Below are positions 4,301 through 19,041 of a DNA stretch of 28,574 nucleotides, in pieces; within the stretch, counting starts at the first letter, position 1, and every line of letters begins with the position of its first letter. The stretch comes from a virus. The notes beneath the pieces were generated by a model. It had not been told where the DNA came from and did no database searches. It saw only the letters and a program-made list of their open reading frames with translations. The position numbers were made by a program, and so were the translations under genes. The stretch covers positions 1 through 28,574 of IMG/VR virus record IMGVR_UViG_3300031227_000300. One strand, written 5' to 3'.

Positions 4301-5300
4301 TAACCCTGGCCCCTTCACTAAAGGTATGGATGTTCTTACACAGAAGTTTGGTAACTTGTCTTTGATGAATCCATGGAATGATATGATGGAAGCTATCGCA
4401 GGGCACATAGGTATCAACCGAACATTACAAACGGTCCACTCAGTTGTTAATGGTGAGCGTGTATCTCAAAAAGAAATCTTGAGGCTTAACAAGCTTGGGC
4501 TTGAGACAAAAAACTTTGACACCATCTATGAGTTTACAAAAGATAACCAAGATACAGATGGTGCTTTGTTTGCTGACTGGGGTAACTGGGATATTAAATC
4601 CAAAGACCAGGCCGAAGCATTGGCACAGTTCCAGCGTAGTGTAGCTAAAGAGATTGAAGAGATTGTTATTCTTCCAGGGCTTGGAGACAAACCGTTAGCA
4701 GCACACGCCCAGTTTGCAGGCGCACCACTTGGCAAGATGTTGTTTCAATTTAAAACATTTTTAATGGCAGCAACCAATAGAGTTATGGTGCCAGCAATTC
4801 AAAACCGTGGCGCAGCCGAAACTTACCAAGGAATTACGGTTATGCTTGCCTTAGGTTCACTTAGTTACATGTCCACGTCATTGGTTAAAGGTAAAGAGAT
4901 AGACTTTTCTTTTGATAAGATGGCTCATGAATCTATTGACCGTAGTGGACTACTTGGAATCTATGGTGAGATGCTTAATATAGGTTCTAAATTAACCGGC
5001 GTTGGAGTGCCGACACGGTATCAATCCCGTGATAAACTCGGAGCTATGTTAGGGCCATCCGCCGGTTCATTTAGTGAGATAGCTAACGTCCTACAAAACA
5101 TTGCTAGCGTAGCCACAGGGAAGAAAGAAGACGTAACAGAAAAAGACCTCGATAAATTCATGAGGCTTTTCCCGTTACAGAATCTTGCAACATCATTAGA
5201 GATACCTAAGAAACTTATCAAGGGTGGGCTTGCTAAGCTGGGCGGCATTGAAACTCCTGAGATGGATGAGGAATTAAAACGGCTGCACACATCAAAATAA
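1308..5300 (+). CDS. large internal virion protein, T7 gp16-like
   Basis: This 1330-residue protein is close in length to T7 gp16 (1318 residues), which leaves the capsid and helps form the DNA ejection channel across the host envelope. The start ATG overlaps the preceding stop, with AGGGG about 10 nt upstream. A small-residue-rich, potentially membrane-active stretch lies at about residues 168-225 and a hydrophobic segment at about 1175-1195. Residues ~480-745 are a long charged Lys/Glu coiled-coil region. The C-terminal ~200 residues ('QFKTFLMAA', 'FPLQN') have the style of gp16 tails. It sits just before the tail fibre gene, as in T7. No lytic transglycosylase motif was recognised at the N-terminus, unlike T7 gp16, so that activity may be in another protein or absent. 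Confidence 0.75.
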   Translation: MADLINEDLEPTEEERDTSSLDKQNELYASFGSKQERGFVPLVSNAPDPQLKGSLWQANFAETTAIGAFMNSTSAKDLEAGKPLPTLEQQISHIPLANINNADAYIGKDIKDYPLVTESLNKEAQRKQLIANRPFSSFAIGIVEQGALEPINWLPFGEAFSTAKKSSSLARAIVGSGATGIAAGIAQEGIITRNELSRTAEESAYNILTNGILGATLGGIGQGVTTRGRVKNIEQRQARMALGKEVKDVYMDTFQELTPEGTLKDDAIAKLNPTLQKAMLSTSMNRLVRSEYGFSKWFSSQMYDNNYTLNKNLNGEIKDQSVELKIRTDRRKLDKTLIDYDNTYYDSIGIKPGPFVGTRAKIEGNNAATKEAFDAEVWKVLSTDIPSENSHVNSNAKLMRDNVFDPFKQRLIDIGQLPEEFKLRNATNYVMSLYNKDKIIEQGGRSARGDNTLPGTLHRGFKDVQNQVRIFKESPGFKVIEAGISNAKERLKGPTFEERKAIDKRITPLNKKIRELDRAKTTRPQEDIKKINESVREAQSEGRQAKADTKTVQKEFEAGFTSEIKSFKDELVSTEKKIAPITLDIKKVETKRQKFRERKLVLQERIKSKGEASKTYAAIKSELDKIPSVIAELDKNIAGLKSKRDGVQPSISSIKADIKRIQGLKKQEAPSIPGLKEKIIASEKKVKELNESKKPTREEANEFIKRIKDIKETIKRLEEDKLLPKELKAELESTIENFEQELKDTTPPHLLDSKGEFWPMLDDDALWGRVEQTIDNILGDTEGKLVNPILQRIKSIGASPLKHRKIVVEQLKLQEWQSTDVPKIAEVYLKAVSPLVHMNEFAIKHGAEDINDFKSMLEKGITEEFNKKSEGKTGKEAQRLRTMRDRDFADMTATLELIEGVYGDGPNVLNNSARTFWENWLKWTSTRMLGFMTMSSFPDAGLQVFTHGYYRFMHDGIMRATSEARSIAKRDLQGIGYAVNTILGSRLASYADTAGLSVNPGPFTKGMDVLTQKFGNLSLMNPWNDMMEAIAGHIGINRTLQTVHSVVNGERVSQKEILRLNKLGLETKNFDTIYEFTKDNQDTDGALFADWGNWDIKSKDQAEALAQFQRSVAKEIEEIVILPGLGDKPLAAHAQFAGAPLGKMLFQFKTFLMAATNRVMVPAIQNRGAAETYQGITVMLALGSLSYMSTSLVKGKEIDFSFDKMAHESIDRSGLLGIYGEMLNIGSKLTGVGVPTRYQSRDKLGAMLGPSAGSFSEIANVLQNIASVATGKKEDVTEKDLDKFMRLFPLQNLATSLEIPKKLIKGGLAKLGGIETPEMDEELKRLHTSK

Positions 5301-13622: not shown

Positions 13623-13841
13623 ATGAGTAATTATAGGTTTGCAATACGAGATACAAGTGATGGCGCTATTCATACATCACGATTTACTTGCCTTGATGAT
13701 GCAATGAGTGCTTGCGAAGATATAGCTTATGCTATGGAGTTGGAGCCGTCAGAGCTTGAAGTTGTTGAGATGGTCGAGCGCGTTAATTCAAGCATAACCA
13801 CACAACACAACACAAACGGAAGGTACTACAATGAAAACTAA
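13623..13841 (+). CDS. hypothetical small acidic protein
   Basis: 72 residues from the ATG at 13623, with GGAG 8 nt upstream; a TTG at 13611 is rejected because it lies within that ribosome binding site. The sequence is acidic in the middle ('AMELEPSELEVVEMVE') and polar at the end. No family is recognised. It is first in the operon with the J-domain gene and overlaps it by 11 nt. The overlap crosses an ACACA-type short repeat. Confidence 0.6.
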   Translation: MSNYRFAIRDTSDGAIHTSRFTCLDDAMSACEDIAYAMELEPSELEVVEMVERVNSSITTQHNTNGRYYNEN

Positions 13842-14310
13842 TGACGCTTGCCAAATTCTAGGGCTCACCGGTGACATAACACCAGAGCTTACAAAAAAAG
13901 CTTACCGAAAAGCTTGTTCAATGTATCATCCAGACCGTAACCCGGCGGGGCTTGAGATGATGAAAGCAGTAAACGAAGCTTACGCAGCACTTAAAGACCA
14001 CACCGGCAGCGAGTCAGTAGGCATACAGTACGGCCATGAATTATTTGAGGCACTCACTGCTATCATTAACTTAGGTTTAGATGTTGAAGTGTGCGGCGCT
14101 TGGGTGTGGGTGTCCGGTGATACCAAACCTCACAAAGATGTATTAAAAGAAGCTGGATACAAGTGGGCTATGAAGAAAAAAATGTGGTTCTATCGTCCGA
14201 GTGATTACAAATCTTTTAGCCGTGGCAGCAAAAGCATGGATGATATCCGTGCCGTGTACGGTAGTGACAGGGCAAGCACTAAACAAAACAAACTCAAGAG
14301 GGCAGCGTGA
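13831..14310 (+). CDS. J-domain (DnaJ-like) co-chaperone
   Basis: 159 residues; GGAAGG lies before the ATG. Residues ~4-57 form a J domain with the diagnostic H33-P34-D35 in 'MYHPDRNP' and the following 'VNEAYAALK' helix. J domains stimulate the ATPase of Hsp70 (DnaK). Residues ~85-130 form a second module with several Trp ('WVWVSGDTKPHKDVLKEAGY', then 'MWFYRP'), seen in other J-domain-containing phage proteins and of unknown role. The zinc and Gly/Phe regions of full DnaJ are absent. It probably redirects host DnaK to a phage task such as replication complex remodelling (lambda needs DnaJ/DnaK at its origin) or virion folding; the target is inference. Confidence 0.85.
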   Translation: MKTNDACQILGLTGDITPELTKKAYRKACSMYHPDRNPAGLEMMKAVNEAYAALKDHTGSESVGIQYGHELFEALTAIINLGLDVEVCGAWVWVSGDTKPHKDVLKEAGYKWAMKKKMWFYRPSDYKSFSRGSKSMDDIRAVYGSDRASTKQNKLKRAA

Positions 14311-15000: not shown

Positions 15001-15414
15001 TTATACACCAGGTTCAGGGCTAACAGGCTCATGTATAGCGTTCTCACGCTGCTCCTTTATTGCTTCACTAATCCCGTACGAACTCACGAGCAAACCTTGG
15101 TAGATTAAATCAGCAACAATGACGGTATTACATAAATCGCTTTGCGTACAGCTACACTCATCATCTTTAAAAAGCATAGCAATCAGCACGCCGACATGTG
15201 CCGTACATATGCACGCCTGCATTGCTTGAACAACTCTTTCAGCAGGTCGTAAGTTATTAGTAAAGAAACTGTAAGCCGATGTTGATGCCTGCCCAATCTT
15301 GAAAGGAATAGCTGCTTGGATTGAAAAGGCTTTAACCGTGCTGGATAACACTTCAGTTGCTACGTTAGCACGCTGTGTAACCCTGTGTTTGTACGTTGAC
15401 GGGGGAAATGGCAT
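15001..15414 (-). CDS. unrecognised protein, possibly membrane-associated
   Basis: 137 residues; GAGG lies 8 nt before the ATG. Two moderately hydrophobic helices are likely at about residues 65-83 ('QACICTAHVGVLIAMLF') and 94-114 ('LCNTVIVADLIYQGLLV'). Between them lies a short acidic, Cys-containing loop ('FKDDECSCTQSD'); five Cys occur across residues 68-95. The ends are polar and the tail is rich in Pro/Glu. It is isolated, leftward, and faces the rightward J-domain operon. It may be an accessory (moron-type) gene. No family was recognised. A plus-strand frame (15299-15583) overlaps it antisense, lacks a ribosome binding site and is not favoured. Confidence 0.55.
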   Translation of the reverse strand: MPFPPSTYKHRVTQRANVATEVLSSTVKAFSIQAAIPFKIGQASTSAYSFFTNNLRPAERVVQAMQACICTAHVGVLIAMLFKDDECSCTQSDLCNTVIVADLIYQGLLVSSYGISEAIKEQRENAIHEPVSPEPGV

Positions 15415-15608: not shown

Positions 15609-15740
15609 ATGAGTGCAAAGGTAACTAAAGTATTAACAGGAAATAAGGGATGTAAAGACAAAGCCGAACGGGTTGCCACCCATGTGTTCGGCTTTAAAAA
15701 CGTAGGACTTAACTACAGGAGTAGTATACCTAATGGCTAA
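15609..15740 (+). CDS. possible 43-residue leader ORF before the winged-helix gene
   Basis: An ATG frame that ends 8 nt inside the winged-helix gene, encoding a basic peptide ('SAKVTKVLTGNKGCKDKAER' start). The ribosome binding site is weak (AGGG 11 nt upstream). A strong hairpin (15660-15695) lies inside it. It may be a true small gene or a leader whose translation affects the hairpin; it may also be fortuitous. Confidence 0.3.
   Translation: MSAKVTKVLTGNKGCKDKAERVATHVFGFKNVGLNYRSSIPNG
15660..15695. other. strong RNA hairpin upstream of the winged-helix gene
   Basis: AAAGCCGAAC (15660-15669) and GTTCGGCTTT (15686-15695) form a perfect 10-bp stem. Inside it, GGGT-TGCC-ACCC (15670-15681) can form an apical 4-bp stem with tetraloop, leaving a 4-nt bulge. 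There is no good U-run after it on the plus strand. It lies about 38 nt before the winged-helix ATG. It could be a terminator-like attenuator, a processing site or a protein-binding RNA. Confidence 0.6.
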
Positions 15741-16035
15741 CAACAATTGCAACGCTGAGTATGATCAAATTCCACGCATAGTTACAGAGCACCCAAAACT
15801 AACCCTTGCCGACTGGGGTGTCATGATATGCATATACCGAGTCTTAAAAGATAAACCAATAATTATTTATTCTAACGAAGCGCTAGCAATTAAGTGTCAG
15901 GTTTCTATAAAAACAATAGAGAGACAGATGTGCAAGTTAAGAAAACTTGGCTTCTTAATATGCACTGGCCGTGGATACAATAGGCGTATTTTACTGGGCA
16001 GATTGTTCCACACAACCCTCACTGGTGAGGGATAG
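15733..16035 (+). CDS. winged-helix replication initiator-like protein
   Basis: 100 residues; ACAGGAG lies 11 nt before the ATG. Residues ~22-80 match the helix-turn-helix type found at the N-terminus of lambda O-like initiators: 'LTLADWGVMICIYRVL', 'YSNEALAIKCQVSIKTIERQ', 'LRKLGFLICTGRGYNRRILL'. The last residues (FHTTLTGEG) are encoded by the first copy of a palindromic DNA repeat. If the TAG is ignored, the same frame reads on for 22 codons and encodes a second copy (FHTTLTGEA), so the gene may once have been longer. Lambda O also carries its iterons inside its gene. A role in origin recognition is inferred; a small regulator is the alternative. Confidence 0.65.
   Translation: MANNNCNAEYDQIPRIVTEHPKLTLADWGVMICIYRVLKDKPIIIYSNEALAIKCQVSIKTIERQMCKLRKLGFLICTGRGYNRRILLGRLFHTTLTGEG
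16009..16031 (+). repeat. palindromic iteron-like repeat, copy 1
   Basis: A CACACAA lead followed by the perfect dyad CCCTCACTGGTGAGGG. It codes for the C-terminus of the winged-helix protein. Lambda O iterons are likewise short repeats with CCCTC...GAGGG dyad symmetry located inside the initiator gene. Confidence 0.8.
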
Positions 16036-16051
16036 AGAGCGTTTTATGTCC

Positions 16052-16065
16052 GTGAAACATTTCAC
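16052..16065. repeat. second dyad element between iteron copies
   Basis: GTGAAACATTTCAC is a perfect 6+2+6 dyad lying between copy 1 and copy 2. It shares the GTGA/TCAC arms of the iteron-like repeat in inverted order. It may be a related binding site or an IHF/regulator site. Confidence 0.45.
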
Positions 16066-16084
16066 ACAACCCTCACTGGTGAGG
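16063..16084 (+). repeat. palindromic iteron-like repeat, copy 2
   Basis: Identical to copy 1 over 22 nt and placed exactly 54 nt (18 codons) after it. It therefore stays in the reading frame of the winged-helix gene beyond its TAG. Its final G is replaced by the start of copy 3. Confidence 0.8.
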
Positions 16085-16107
16085 CACACAACCCTCACTG
16101 GTGAGGG
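16085..16107 (+). repeat. palindromic iteron-like repeat, copy 3
   Basis: Directly abuts copy 2 with no spacer and matches copy 1 over the full 23 nt. The 22-nt step places the dyads about two helical turns apart, on the same face of the DNA, as expected for an initiator array. Confidence 0.8.
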
Positions 16108-16318
16108 AGATACTAAGATCCTTTACTAAAGTACTGACGATTCGCTGGCGCTGGCCCACAAGTTCGACTCCAATAAATTACTAACCTCCCATCAATACCC
16201 TACCGCGCTTCGCTTGCTTCCTCGCCTTCACTTCGTTGCGGCCGAGGCTTATTTTATATAGAGACAACAAGCTAAAGCTTTTCTTGAAGTCAAAGTCAAC
16301 TTCAAAAGAAAGTGTTTA
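16108..16318. other. non-coding candidate origin flank between convergent winged-helix genes
   Basis: No gene is visible. It contains CTTTACTAAAG (16121-16131), a GC-rich stretch with CCTCG...CGAGG arms around 16220-16247, an A/T-rich block (TTATTTTATATAG, 16250-16262) that could be an unwinding element, and TTGAAGT/ACTTCAA arms around 16284-16305. With the three iteron-like repeats at its left edge, it resembles a replication origin. The function is inferred. Confidence 0.45.
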
Positions 16319-16597
16319 TTAGTGTCTCGGCTCTCTAGCACTGTACTGGTCGCTTACTTTTTTTCCTGTATTCTCGCAGTACTTTTTAGTGTACTTAATT
16401 ATTCCAAGATTTACTAAAATGCTTCTAGCCCTATAAAGCATTGCTAATGATACTCCTAGCGCACAACTTAAATCCTGGGCTGATATTGTTAGCTCACCAG
16501 AATCGCCAGTTGTTTCAATTATTCCAGTCAAGTACATGTACAAATACTTTGCTTTAATTTCTATTGTCTTATCTTTTAACACGCATGTTTCGTACAA
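16319..16597 (-). CDS. winged-helix DNA-binding protein
   Basis: 92 residues from TTG at 16597, which has GAGG 9 nt upstream; a GTG at 16606 adds 3 residues but overlaps that ribosome binding site, so the start is uncertain. Residues ~34-75 form a helix-turn-helix ('LTISAQDLSCALGVSLAMLY', 'RARSILVNLGIIKYTKK'). It resembles replication or transcription regulators of phages and plasmids. It is last in the leftward operon that begins with the Cro-like repressor, and it converges on the candidate origin. It may bind there or regulate early genes. Confidence 0.55.
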   Translation of the reverse strand: MYETCVLKDKTIEIKAKYLYMYLTGIIETTGDSGELTISAQDLSCALGVSLAMLYRARSILVNLGIIKYTKKYCENTGKKVSDQYSAREPRH

Positions 16598-16653
16598 TTT
16601 AATCACCCTCTTAGTTTTGTGCTACACTAACCAAGTCGTTTCTCCTGGGCGAC

Positions 16654-17139: not shown

Positions 17140-18018
17140 ATGAAATTTGTATACAATAACGGAATTCACAGCATTAGTAACGAGTCTTATCATGCCAGCG
17201 AGGGTGTATCTCGCAGTCAATTGATGGACTTAAGCAGAACGCCAGCGCACTTTTATCACAAGCATTTGAACCCTAACTACGTCAAGCCAGCAACGCCCCC
17301 TGCTTTTTTACTGGGCAGCATGGTTCACACAATGACCCTTGAGCCTCACCTTTTCAATCATGAGTACATGATCAAGCCAGAGCTTGCACCTATGCCACCA
17401 GCACTCAGGCTTAAAGATGTCGGGCGCACACTGTTTGAAGTAAATAAATATGAGCGCGACACGATAGCTATAGCCAACGAAAAACTAATGGCAGACTTTC
17501 AATTGATGTCGGCTAACAAACAAGTCATTACCAACAGCATGTACGAGCAAGCATCTGCTATGCGTGATGCGGTATGGGGTGACAGCACAGCTCAGGAGCT
17601 TGTTAACAGCGGCCTGGTTGAGCGCTCTATATACTTTGAAGATAAGGCAACGGGTATACAAATGAAGGCCCGTCCGGACATCATGGTAGGCCCTATCGGT
17701 ATTGATTTAAAAACTACAGTTGACGGCAGCCCTCGCGCTTTCAGCCATAGCGCATCAAACTATGGTTACTATGAGCAAGCAGCGTTTTGTCATAAAGCCA
17801 TGGCATCAATTGGCGTAGAGATGGAAGGCTTTATCTTTGTGTGTGTTGAGAAGACTGAACCTTATTGCATTTCAATACATGAACTTGATGCCGAGGCTAT
17901 TGACTACGGAATAGAGCTAGTTGATGACCTGATGCTTAAACTTAAAGACTGCTTGAACTCTAACGCCTGGCCGTCATACCCTTTACAAGAACTCAGCGTA
18001 CCTGGATGGGCTAAATAA
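17140..18018 (+). CDS. RecE/exonuclease VIII-type PD-(D/E)XK nuclease
   Basis: 292 residues with GGAG before the ATG. It fits the phage exonuclease VIII-like family (DUF3799, PDDEXK fold). Seen are an N-terminal 'YHASEGVSRSQLMDLSRTPA', 'LLGSMVHTMTLEP' with H63, and the catalytic 'KARPDIM...GIDLKTT' (D180, D189-x-K191). 'YGYYEQAAFCHKAM' corresponds to the family's QxxxY-type region. It would resect double-strand ends to make 3' single strands for the Bet protein encoded 200 bp downstream. It is first in the early operon under the repressor-controlled promoter. Confidence 0.88.
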   Translation: MKFVYNNGIHSISNESYHASEGVSRSQLMDLSRTPAHFYHKHLNPNYVKPATPPAFLLGSMVHTMTLEPHLFNHEYMIKPELAPMPPALRLKDVGRTLFEVNKYERDTIAIANEKLMADFQLMSANKQVITNSMYEQASAMRDAVWGDSTAQELVNSGLVERSIYFEDKATGIQMKARPDIMVGPIGIDLKTTVDGSPRAFSHSASNYGYYEQAAFCHKAMASIGVEMEGFIFVCVEKTEPYCISIHELDAEAIDYGIELVDDLMLKLKDCLNSNAWPSYPLQELSVPGWAK

Positions 18019-18233: not shown

Positions 18234-19041
18234 TTTAATAATGTGGGAAGATAAAGAGAAGCTTGCAGAGATACGAAAGCTATTTGCACCTAAGTTATCC
18301 GATAGCGAGTTCCAATTCTTTGTTGGGCTAGGTAAGGCGGCACAACTTAACCCGTTCACCAGGGAAATTTGGAGCGTTAAGTACCAAGACAGTGCGCCAG
18401 CCCAGGTGTTCATTGGCCGTGATGGATATAGAAAAGCTAGCCAGCGTGACAAAGACTATGACTTTCACCAAGTTGATGCAGTGTACTCCAATGATGAGTT
18501 TCAATTTGACGTTCGCGAAGGCTACCCAATTCATAAATATAATATGAAAGACCGTGGAGAATTGATTGGGGCTTACTGTATCGCTAAGCGCAAAGGTTCT
18601 AACCGACCGACGTACACCTGGGTAAAGTTATCTGAGTATTCAACAGGTAAAAGTCTATGGAATCCTAACACCGGCAAGCCTGAGACAATGATTAAAAAGG
18701 TGGCTGAGTCTCAAGGGTTACGTGCAACCTTTCAAGATTTATTGGGCGGCACTTACGCTGAAGAAGAAGTTCCACAACGCATGGCACAAGCGCCAGCTAC
18801 TAAAGAATCCCTCATGGATAAAATCAAACAAGCCAAGGGTGTAGTGGTTGAAGCGGAGACCGGCGAACTTGCAGGCGATAAATCACTAGAAGACATTGAG
18901 TTTCTAATTGCCGTCAAAGACTTTGATGCGGATAGAACGAAGAAAGCGTTGGCTCACTATAAAGTTGATGCCATGGAGCAGCTTACACAAGTACAAGCAG
19001 ATAGTTTTATTAATGAACTGAAAAAACTAGAGGACGTGTAA
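18223..19041 (+). CDS. bet: phage recombination protein Bet (RecT superfamily annealase)
   Basis: 272 residues from the ATG at 18223; an upstream in-frame ATG at 18157 is rejected because it lies deep inside the previous gene, while GGAG precedes 18223. Residues ~10-190 match the lambda Bet family: 'EFQFFVGLGKAAQLNPFTRE', 'APAQVFIGRDGYRKASQRD', 'GAYCIAKRKGSNRPTYTWV', 'MIKKVAESQGLRATF'. Bet coats 3' overhangs and anneals complementary strands. With the RecE-type nuclease and RusA it forms a complete recombination set, useful for concatemer formation. The C-terminal ~80 residues are a more variable acidic helical tail that usually contacts SSB. Confidence 0.93.
   Translation: MSTDLIMWEDKEKLAEIRKLFAPKLSDSEFQFFVGLGKAAQLNPFTREIWSVKYQDSAPAQVFIGRDGYRKASQRDKDYDFHQVDAVYSNDEFQFDVREGYPIHKYNMKDRGELIGAYCIAKRKGSNRPTYTWVKLSEYSTGKSLWNPNTGKPETMIKKVAESQGLRATFQDLLGGTYAEEEVPQRMAQAPATKESLMDKIKQAKGVVVEAETGELAGDKSLEDIEFLIAVKDFDADRTKKALAHYKVDAMEQLTQVQADSFINELKKLEDV

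Follow-up and report, generated by a model that had tools for sequence, protein, structure and literature searches.

Does a locus in which a short winged-helix gene runs into palindromic repeats constitute a replication origin of the lambda O type, as the preliminary description of this viral DNA had proposed? We addressed this question in the window (the whole stretch of 28,574 nucleotides) and in related phage loci (L004–L100), which were collected by searches with the portal, terminase and exonuclease. Our data make it fairly probable that the window carries here the DNA-binding half of an origin module of the lambda O type, consisting of a 100-aa winged-helix domain and three dyad iterons. 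This grading concerns the identity of the module; the gradings given below for rival readings divide the question of its present function, and these likelihoods do not sum to one.

Three iterons at the end of a winged-helix gene

The locus comprises the following elements:

15733–16035, plus strand: gene of a 100-aa winged-helix protein with homology to the DNA-binding N-terminus of the O-like initiator of L043 (BLASTP, AF2 model, fold and profile matches)
16009–16030, plus strand: iteron 1, 22 bp, dyad at 16016–16031, encodes the C-terminus of the 100-aa protein
16063–16084, plus strand: iteron 2, dyad arms at 16071–16084, end base changed
16085–16106, plus strand: iteron 3, abuts iteron 2, dyad at 16092–16107

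The 22-mer CACACAACCCTCACTGGTGAGG is present in three copies with zero mismatches among them, and copies 2 and 3 directly abut each other, both as previously described. Such a repeat structure is far beyond chance. The longest exact short-range repeat measured 24 nt compared with at most 14 nt in 60 Markov shuffles, and when the 16-mer was searched on both strands with up to three mismatches, we found six matches in the window against a mean of 0.13 in dinucleotide shuffles, none of which attained six. In copies 1 and 3, the sequence continues so as to complete the dyad CCCTCACTGGTGAGGG, which consists of 7-bp arms and an asymmetric TG centre. Its reverse complement differs at two positions and because of the TG centre the palindrome is near-perfect, not strictly perfect. 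Copy 2 ends with GGC instead of GGG since copy 3 starts at that point. Thus, the perfect dyad previously assigned to each copy holds only as a near-perfect one of 7 + 7 bp. The dyad centres are spaced by 54 and 22 bp, which corresponds to about 5.1 and 2.1 helical turns and thus to a rough helical phase. A further, separate dyad with 6-bp arms (GTGAAACATTTCAC, 16052–16065) occupies part of the gap behind iteron 1 and reaches into the first bases of iteron 2.

The 100-aa gene is preceded by a plausible ribosome-binding site (AGGAG, 15717–15721) and its TAG follows directly after the first dyad. The last residues of the open reading frame (HTTLTGEG) are encoded by copy 1, which is in line with the preliminary description. 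Upstream of the gene there is a strong hairpin (AAAGCCGAAC...GTTCGGCTTT, 15660–15695), which is terminator-like on the minus strand (z −4.1). The AlphaFold (AF2) model of the protein is a winged helix (wHTH) with a mean pLDDT of 81. Among solved structures, both the family profile and the fold matched best to the N-terminal domain of staphylococcal pSK41 RepA (4pql, 4pta, 5kbj, 4pt7). Pfam scans of the protein gave no RepA_N match and the similarity is seen only by family profile and fold. Comparison with PHROG yielded weak matches (E 0.002 and worse), but most of the best ones were replication-initiation families including O-like proteins. Considerably stronger is the similarity to the 354-aa initiator of L043, with whose N-terminal part 97 residues align ungapped at 31% identity (BLASTP E 1e-14; phmmer E 6e-11). 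Among the relatives, simple searches detected homology to the window protein only for L043, and scans of viral and genome contigs returned no contig other than that of L043. When both small winged-helix proteins of the window (the second one is described below) and the L043 domain were used in tblastn, no match was found in 50,697 phage records. The 100-aa protein did not match the Phage_rep_O and phage_O_Nterm models, and alignment of lambda O with the family profile (hhalign) was not convincing (probability 1.2%, E 0.044), so that homology to lambda O is not detectable.

It is highly improbable that the repeats have nothing to do with replication and are hairpins (in RNA or of a terminator), a repeat element of the host or a product of chance. 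The dyads can form RNA hairpins (z −4.1), as any palindrome can, but they have no T-run behind them and no terminator was called there. Rfam and tRNA searches of the region gave no match. The iteron itself was absent from other IMG/VR contigs and from 84,980 bacterial and archaeal genomes (exact search), and therefore it is not a known host repeat. Moreover, its position is the same as that of the dyads in the relatives' initiators (see below). Megablast of the region did not yield a match in the 50,697 phage records. A plus-strand terminator after the iterons was considered because of a pattern match at 16231, but folding gives no support for it.

Dyads inside the initiator genes of related phages

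For comparison, a tandem-dyad scan was carried out on 88 sequences (86 related loci, lambda and the window); an earlier, looser scan had included a shuffle control. The tandem-dyad scan yielded 20 clusters: 14 belong to relatives' initiator genes, four lie elsewhere, and lambda O and the window account for one each. Recovery of the known lambda iterons by the same scan served as positive control. When L012 and L016 are added to this number and the near-identical L026, L027 and L066 are counted once, there are 14 distinct relatives with in-gene arrays (L043, L030, L005, L012, L016, L018, L026, L034, L036, L044, L049, L050, L051, L054); this count comprises those in which dyads were found, and not every initiator, for instance that of L064, was shown to have them. 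The initiators with dyads are winged-helix proteins of 253–399 aa, and relatives' initiators match O-like and replication-initiation families of PHROG with E-values down to about 1e-32. Their arrays begin at codons 105–142, just past the winged-helix domain, except for L051, in which the later position is probably due to a mis-set start. Examples are CGGACATTTTGTCCG (L005), GTGACACTGGTGTCAC (L030), GTGAGCCAGTACTGGCTCAC (L043) and GTATCGCCGTGGCGATAC (L044). It can be seen that the dyad sequence varies between lineages while its position is constant, a pattern that would fit co-evolution of the initiator with its cognate sites. The L043 array and the window iteron have a 9-nt core in common (CTCACTGGT; shuffle p 0.02), but this was one of 16 comparisons and is not significant once corrected for that number.

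The DNA downstream of the iterons behaves differently in the relatives and in the window. In 12 of the 14 relatives it is 63–92% AT, whereas the corresponding value for the window is 53%. Similarly, when the 60 bp on either side of the iterons are compared, the downstream side has the higher A/T content in lambda and in 13 of the 14 relatives but not in the window. The nearest relatives covering the region (L005, L012, L017, L018) carry a longer initiator (275–335 aa) on the minus strand before exonuclease VIII. In L005 and L012 there is also a loader resembling lambda P (Pfam PF06992, E about 1e-28), and in L043 the initiator gene is followed by a P-like loader gene.

Two of these loci have additional peculiarities. 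The initiator gene of L054 involves repeats of G and C runs (1372–1427, TTGGGGGGGGTACTCCCCCCAA), which is an unusual composition for an origin. In L016 (12714–18593), the minus strand carries the genes of RecT and exonuclease, and the plus strand carries that of a 335-aa initiator with in-gene CCGGAAAAACCGGA repeats beside an integrase-like gene; the replication module has thus been rearranged within the group.

Taken together, these data suggest that origins inside initiator genes are widespread among uncultured phages of a broad group. Since iteron sequences differ by lineage and their position is fixed, candidate origins in such genomes can be picked out by a simple scan for tandem dyads. 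For the window, the proposal of a lambda O-like origin stands in part. Tandem dyads follow the winged-helix domain in the relatives as they do in lambda O, and the window has a winged-helix domain homologous to O-like initiators (via L043) with tandem dyads beside this DNA-binding domain (iteron 1 in the gene, iterons 2 and 3 just past its stop). What it does not have is a complete lambda-type origin.

Missing parts and present function of the locus

Two further elements have to be considered downstream of the iterons:

16249–16288, no strand: nearest A/T-rich block, 75% AT, 99th percentile, 141 bp past the last iteron and thus not adjacent as in lambda
16319–16606, minus strand: convergent gene of a 95-aa winged-helix protein with weak DnaD-like and replication-initiation matches and a homolog in L064

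The reading frame of the initiator-like protein stops at 16035 and a C-terminal domain is absent. Every plus-strand frame contains a stop by 16129 and nothing coding-like was found between this position and the convergent gene (end at 16319), which rules out a sequencing error as the reason for the truncation. The distance between the last iteron and the convergent gene is 212 bp. We considered a 137-aa minus-strand open reading frame (15001–15414) as displaced C-terminal domain, but it matched no family. A P-like loader was not found in the window at E < 10 with a P HMM that gives 16 strong matches in the relatives' loci. The contig is a fragment and, by comparison with L006, about 2 kb are probably absent (the last part of the tail-tube gene, a gene of 165 aa and the first part of the internal virion gene). 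Since gene order points to structural genes in the absent piece, the loader gene is probably not hidden there. Finally, the A/T-rich block previously placed directly after the iterons is not found at this position: The following 60 bp are 53% AT compared with 56% for the window overall, and the block at 16249–16288 is the sole one of the 99th percentile near the iterons. GC skew was also inspected, but there is only a local maximum near 16.0 kb, which is explained by gene direction and is not a genome-wide extremum.

With the C-terminal domain, a P-type loader and an adjacent A/T-rich region all lacking, the locus does not represent a complete working lambda-type origin. Because these three defining features are missing and homology to lambda O is undetectable, we consider it a reduced variant resembling the DNA-binding half and not a full member of the class. 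What is left could represent a pared-down origin, a relic or a DNA-binding module put to another use; the locus may also be a metagenomic chimera.

The preliminary description had further stated that there is no other replication gene between terminase and portal. However, this interval harbours the DNA-metabolism genes for exonuclease VIII (17140–18018) and RecT (open reading frame ending at 19041) as well as the second winged-helix gene. The L064 homolog of the 95-aa protein (4840–5124) is encoded directly upstream of a full-length 348-aa initiator gene, and this gene position suggests that the 95-aa protein might be a conserved small partner or regulator. A J-domain (DnaJ-like) protein is encoded at 13831–14310 on the plus strand (Pfam PF00226, E 8e-11). 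Copies with about 60% identity are present in L015 and L017/L010, and none was found in the P-bearing loci L005 and L012. In lambda, host DnaJ and DnaK act on the O-P-DnaB complex, and a J-protein encoded by the phage itself close to the initiator may therefore be worth noting.

How might the locus work? The 100-aa protein would bind the individual dyads, probably in dimeric form. With spacings of 54 and 22 bp, these sites are roughly in helical phase, which might allow the protein to build an array resembling the O-some. In the relatives, the gene runs on through the iterons and usually an A/T-rich stretch into the C-terminal domain, and everything beyond the iterons is gone here. Without a helicase-recruiting part and a neighbouring unwinding element, lambda-style initiation would not be completed by the protein alone. 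Either the loader may be supplied in trans (by the host, a phage protein or a co-resident phage) or the protein may be a shortened remnant that only binds its own sites. It is possible, though less than probable, that selection keeps a free-standing initiator DNA-binding domain together with its own iterons, either as a minimal origin whose helicase is loaded by a protein recruited in trans or as an interference module by which the origin of iteron-sharing phages is occupied or titrated.

A compact working origin, in which the 100-aa protein sits on the iterons, the block at 16249–16288 unwinds and the helicase arrives via a host protein or a phage partner (e.g. the 95-aa winged-helix protein or the J-domain protein), is possible but falls short of probable. 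In its favour are the intact reading frame with its plausible ribosome-binding site, three identical 22-bp sites in rough helical phase and an A/T-rich block at the 99th percentile, and no other initiator candidate was seen in about 93% of the genome. The missing C-terminal domain and loader and the non-adjacent position of the A/T-rich block argue against it. Moreover, lambda O amber mutants cut to 160 or 205 residues are O-defective (PMC6022878), so that independent initiation by a protein of 100 residues should not be taken for granted.

Somewhat less likely is a decaying relic, in which the C-terminal half of a full-length initiator was lost by recombination and the phage replicates otherwise. 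Three features kept by the relatives are lost here, the gene is inverted relative to L005, L012, L017 and L018, and exonuclease VIII and RecT could support recombination-dependent replication. On the other hand, the remaining reading frame is uninterrupted, its residues are conserved and the iterons are identical over 22 bp, which is unlike the outcome of long drift.

It is unlikely that the locus is a regulatory or replication-interference module, with the DNA-binding domain acting on its own operators (autoregulation) or, together with the iterons, disturbing the origin of an iteron-sharing phage. There are precedents for such effects: Iterons devoid of the A/T-rich tract inhibit lambda replication under oop transcription (PMC3349717), lambda is arrested by ectopic origins (PMC4488673) and in ICP1 Odn the DNA-binding domain of an initiator is reused against a satellite origin (PMC8263062). 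Antisense transcription might come from the convergent minus-strand operon. However, no other phage with this iteron was found and the position of the iterons is that of the gene end and not of a promoter.

Comparison with known systems

Origins within initiator genes are known from lambda, its relatives and some plasmids. Among plasmid initiators, pSK41 RepA (RepA_N) has a moderate fold likeness to the window protein (TM 0.70, rmsd 3.5–6, identity about 20%). Four Rep boxes sit centrally within its rep gene (PMC5703833). However, pSK41 Rep comprises 319 aa with further domains, whereas the window protein has 100 aa and no RepA_N Pfam match. The PLE RepA/origin system resembles the window in combining an initiator DNA-binding domain with three semi-palindromic iterons (PMC8263062), but there the iterons are intergenic and RepA retains its C-terminal domain. 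ICP1 Odn is a precedent for reuse of the domain apart from initiation and, unlike the window protein, involves a nuclease domain (PMC8263062).

The lambda origin in gene O (NC_001416, iterons 1–4 at 39034–39118) shares with the window an N-terminal winged-helix domain and dyads of the same CCCTC...GAGGG type, which in lambda begin at about codon 116 with a spacing of 20–24 bp. Lambda O uses its N-terminal part to bind each iteron as a dimer and the C-terminal part to contact P (PMC6022878), and the minimal unwinding unit consists of two iterons plus the A/T-rich tract (PMC7466680). Lambda O comprises 299 aa including the P-binding C-terminal part, and both an A/T-rich tract next to the iterons and gene P are present, whereas the window has 100 aa and neither an adjacent tract nor a P-like gene. 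The truncated form in the window would permit a direct test of the DNA-binding half of an O-type initiator on its own. The O-like initiators of the uncultured relatives are all longer than that of the window, most are followed by A/T-rich DNA past the iterons and several by a P-like gene, but as in the window their dyads lie directly after the winged-helix domain, and the nearest ones share the same genome neighbourhood.
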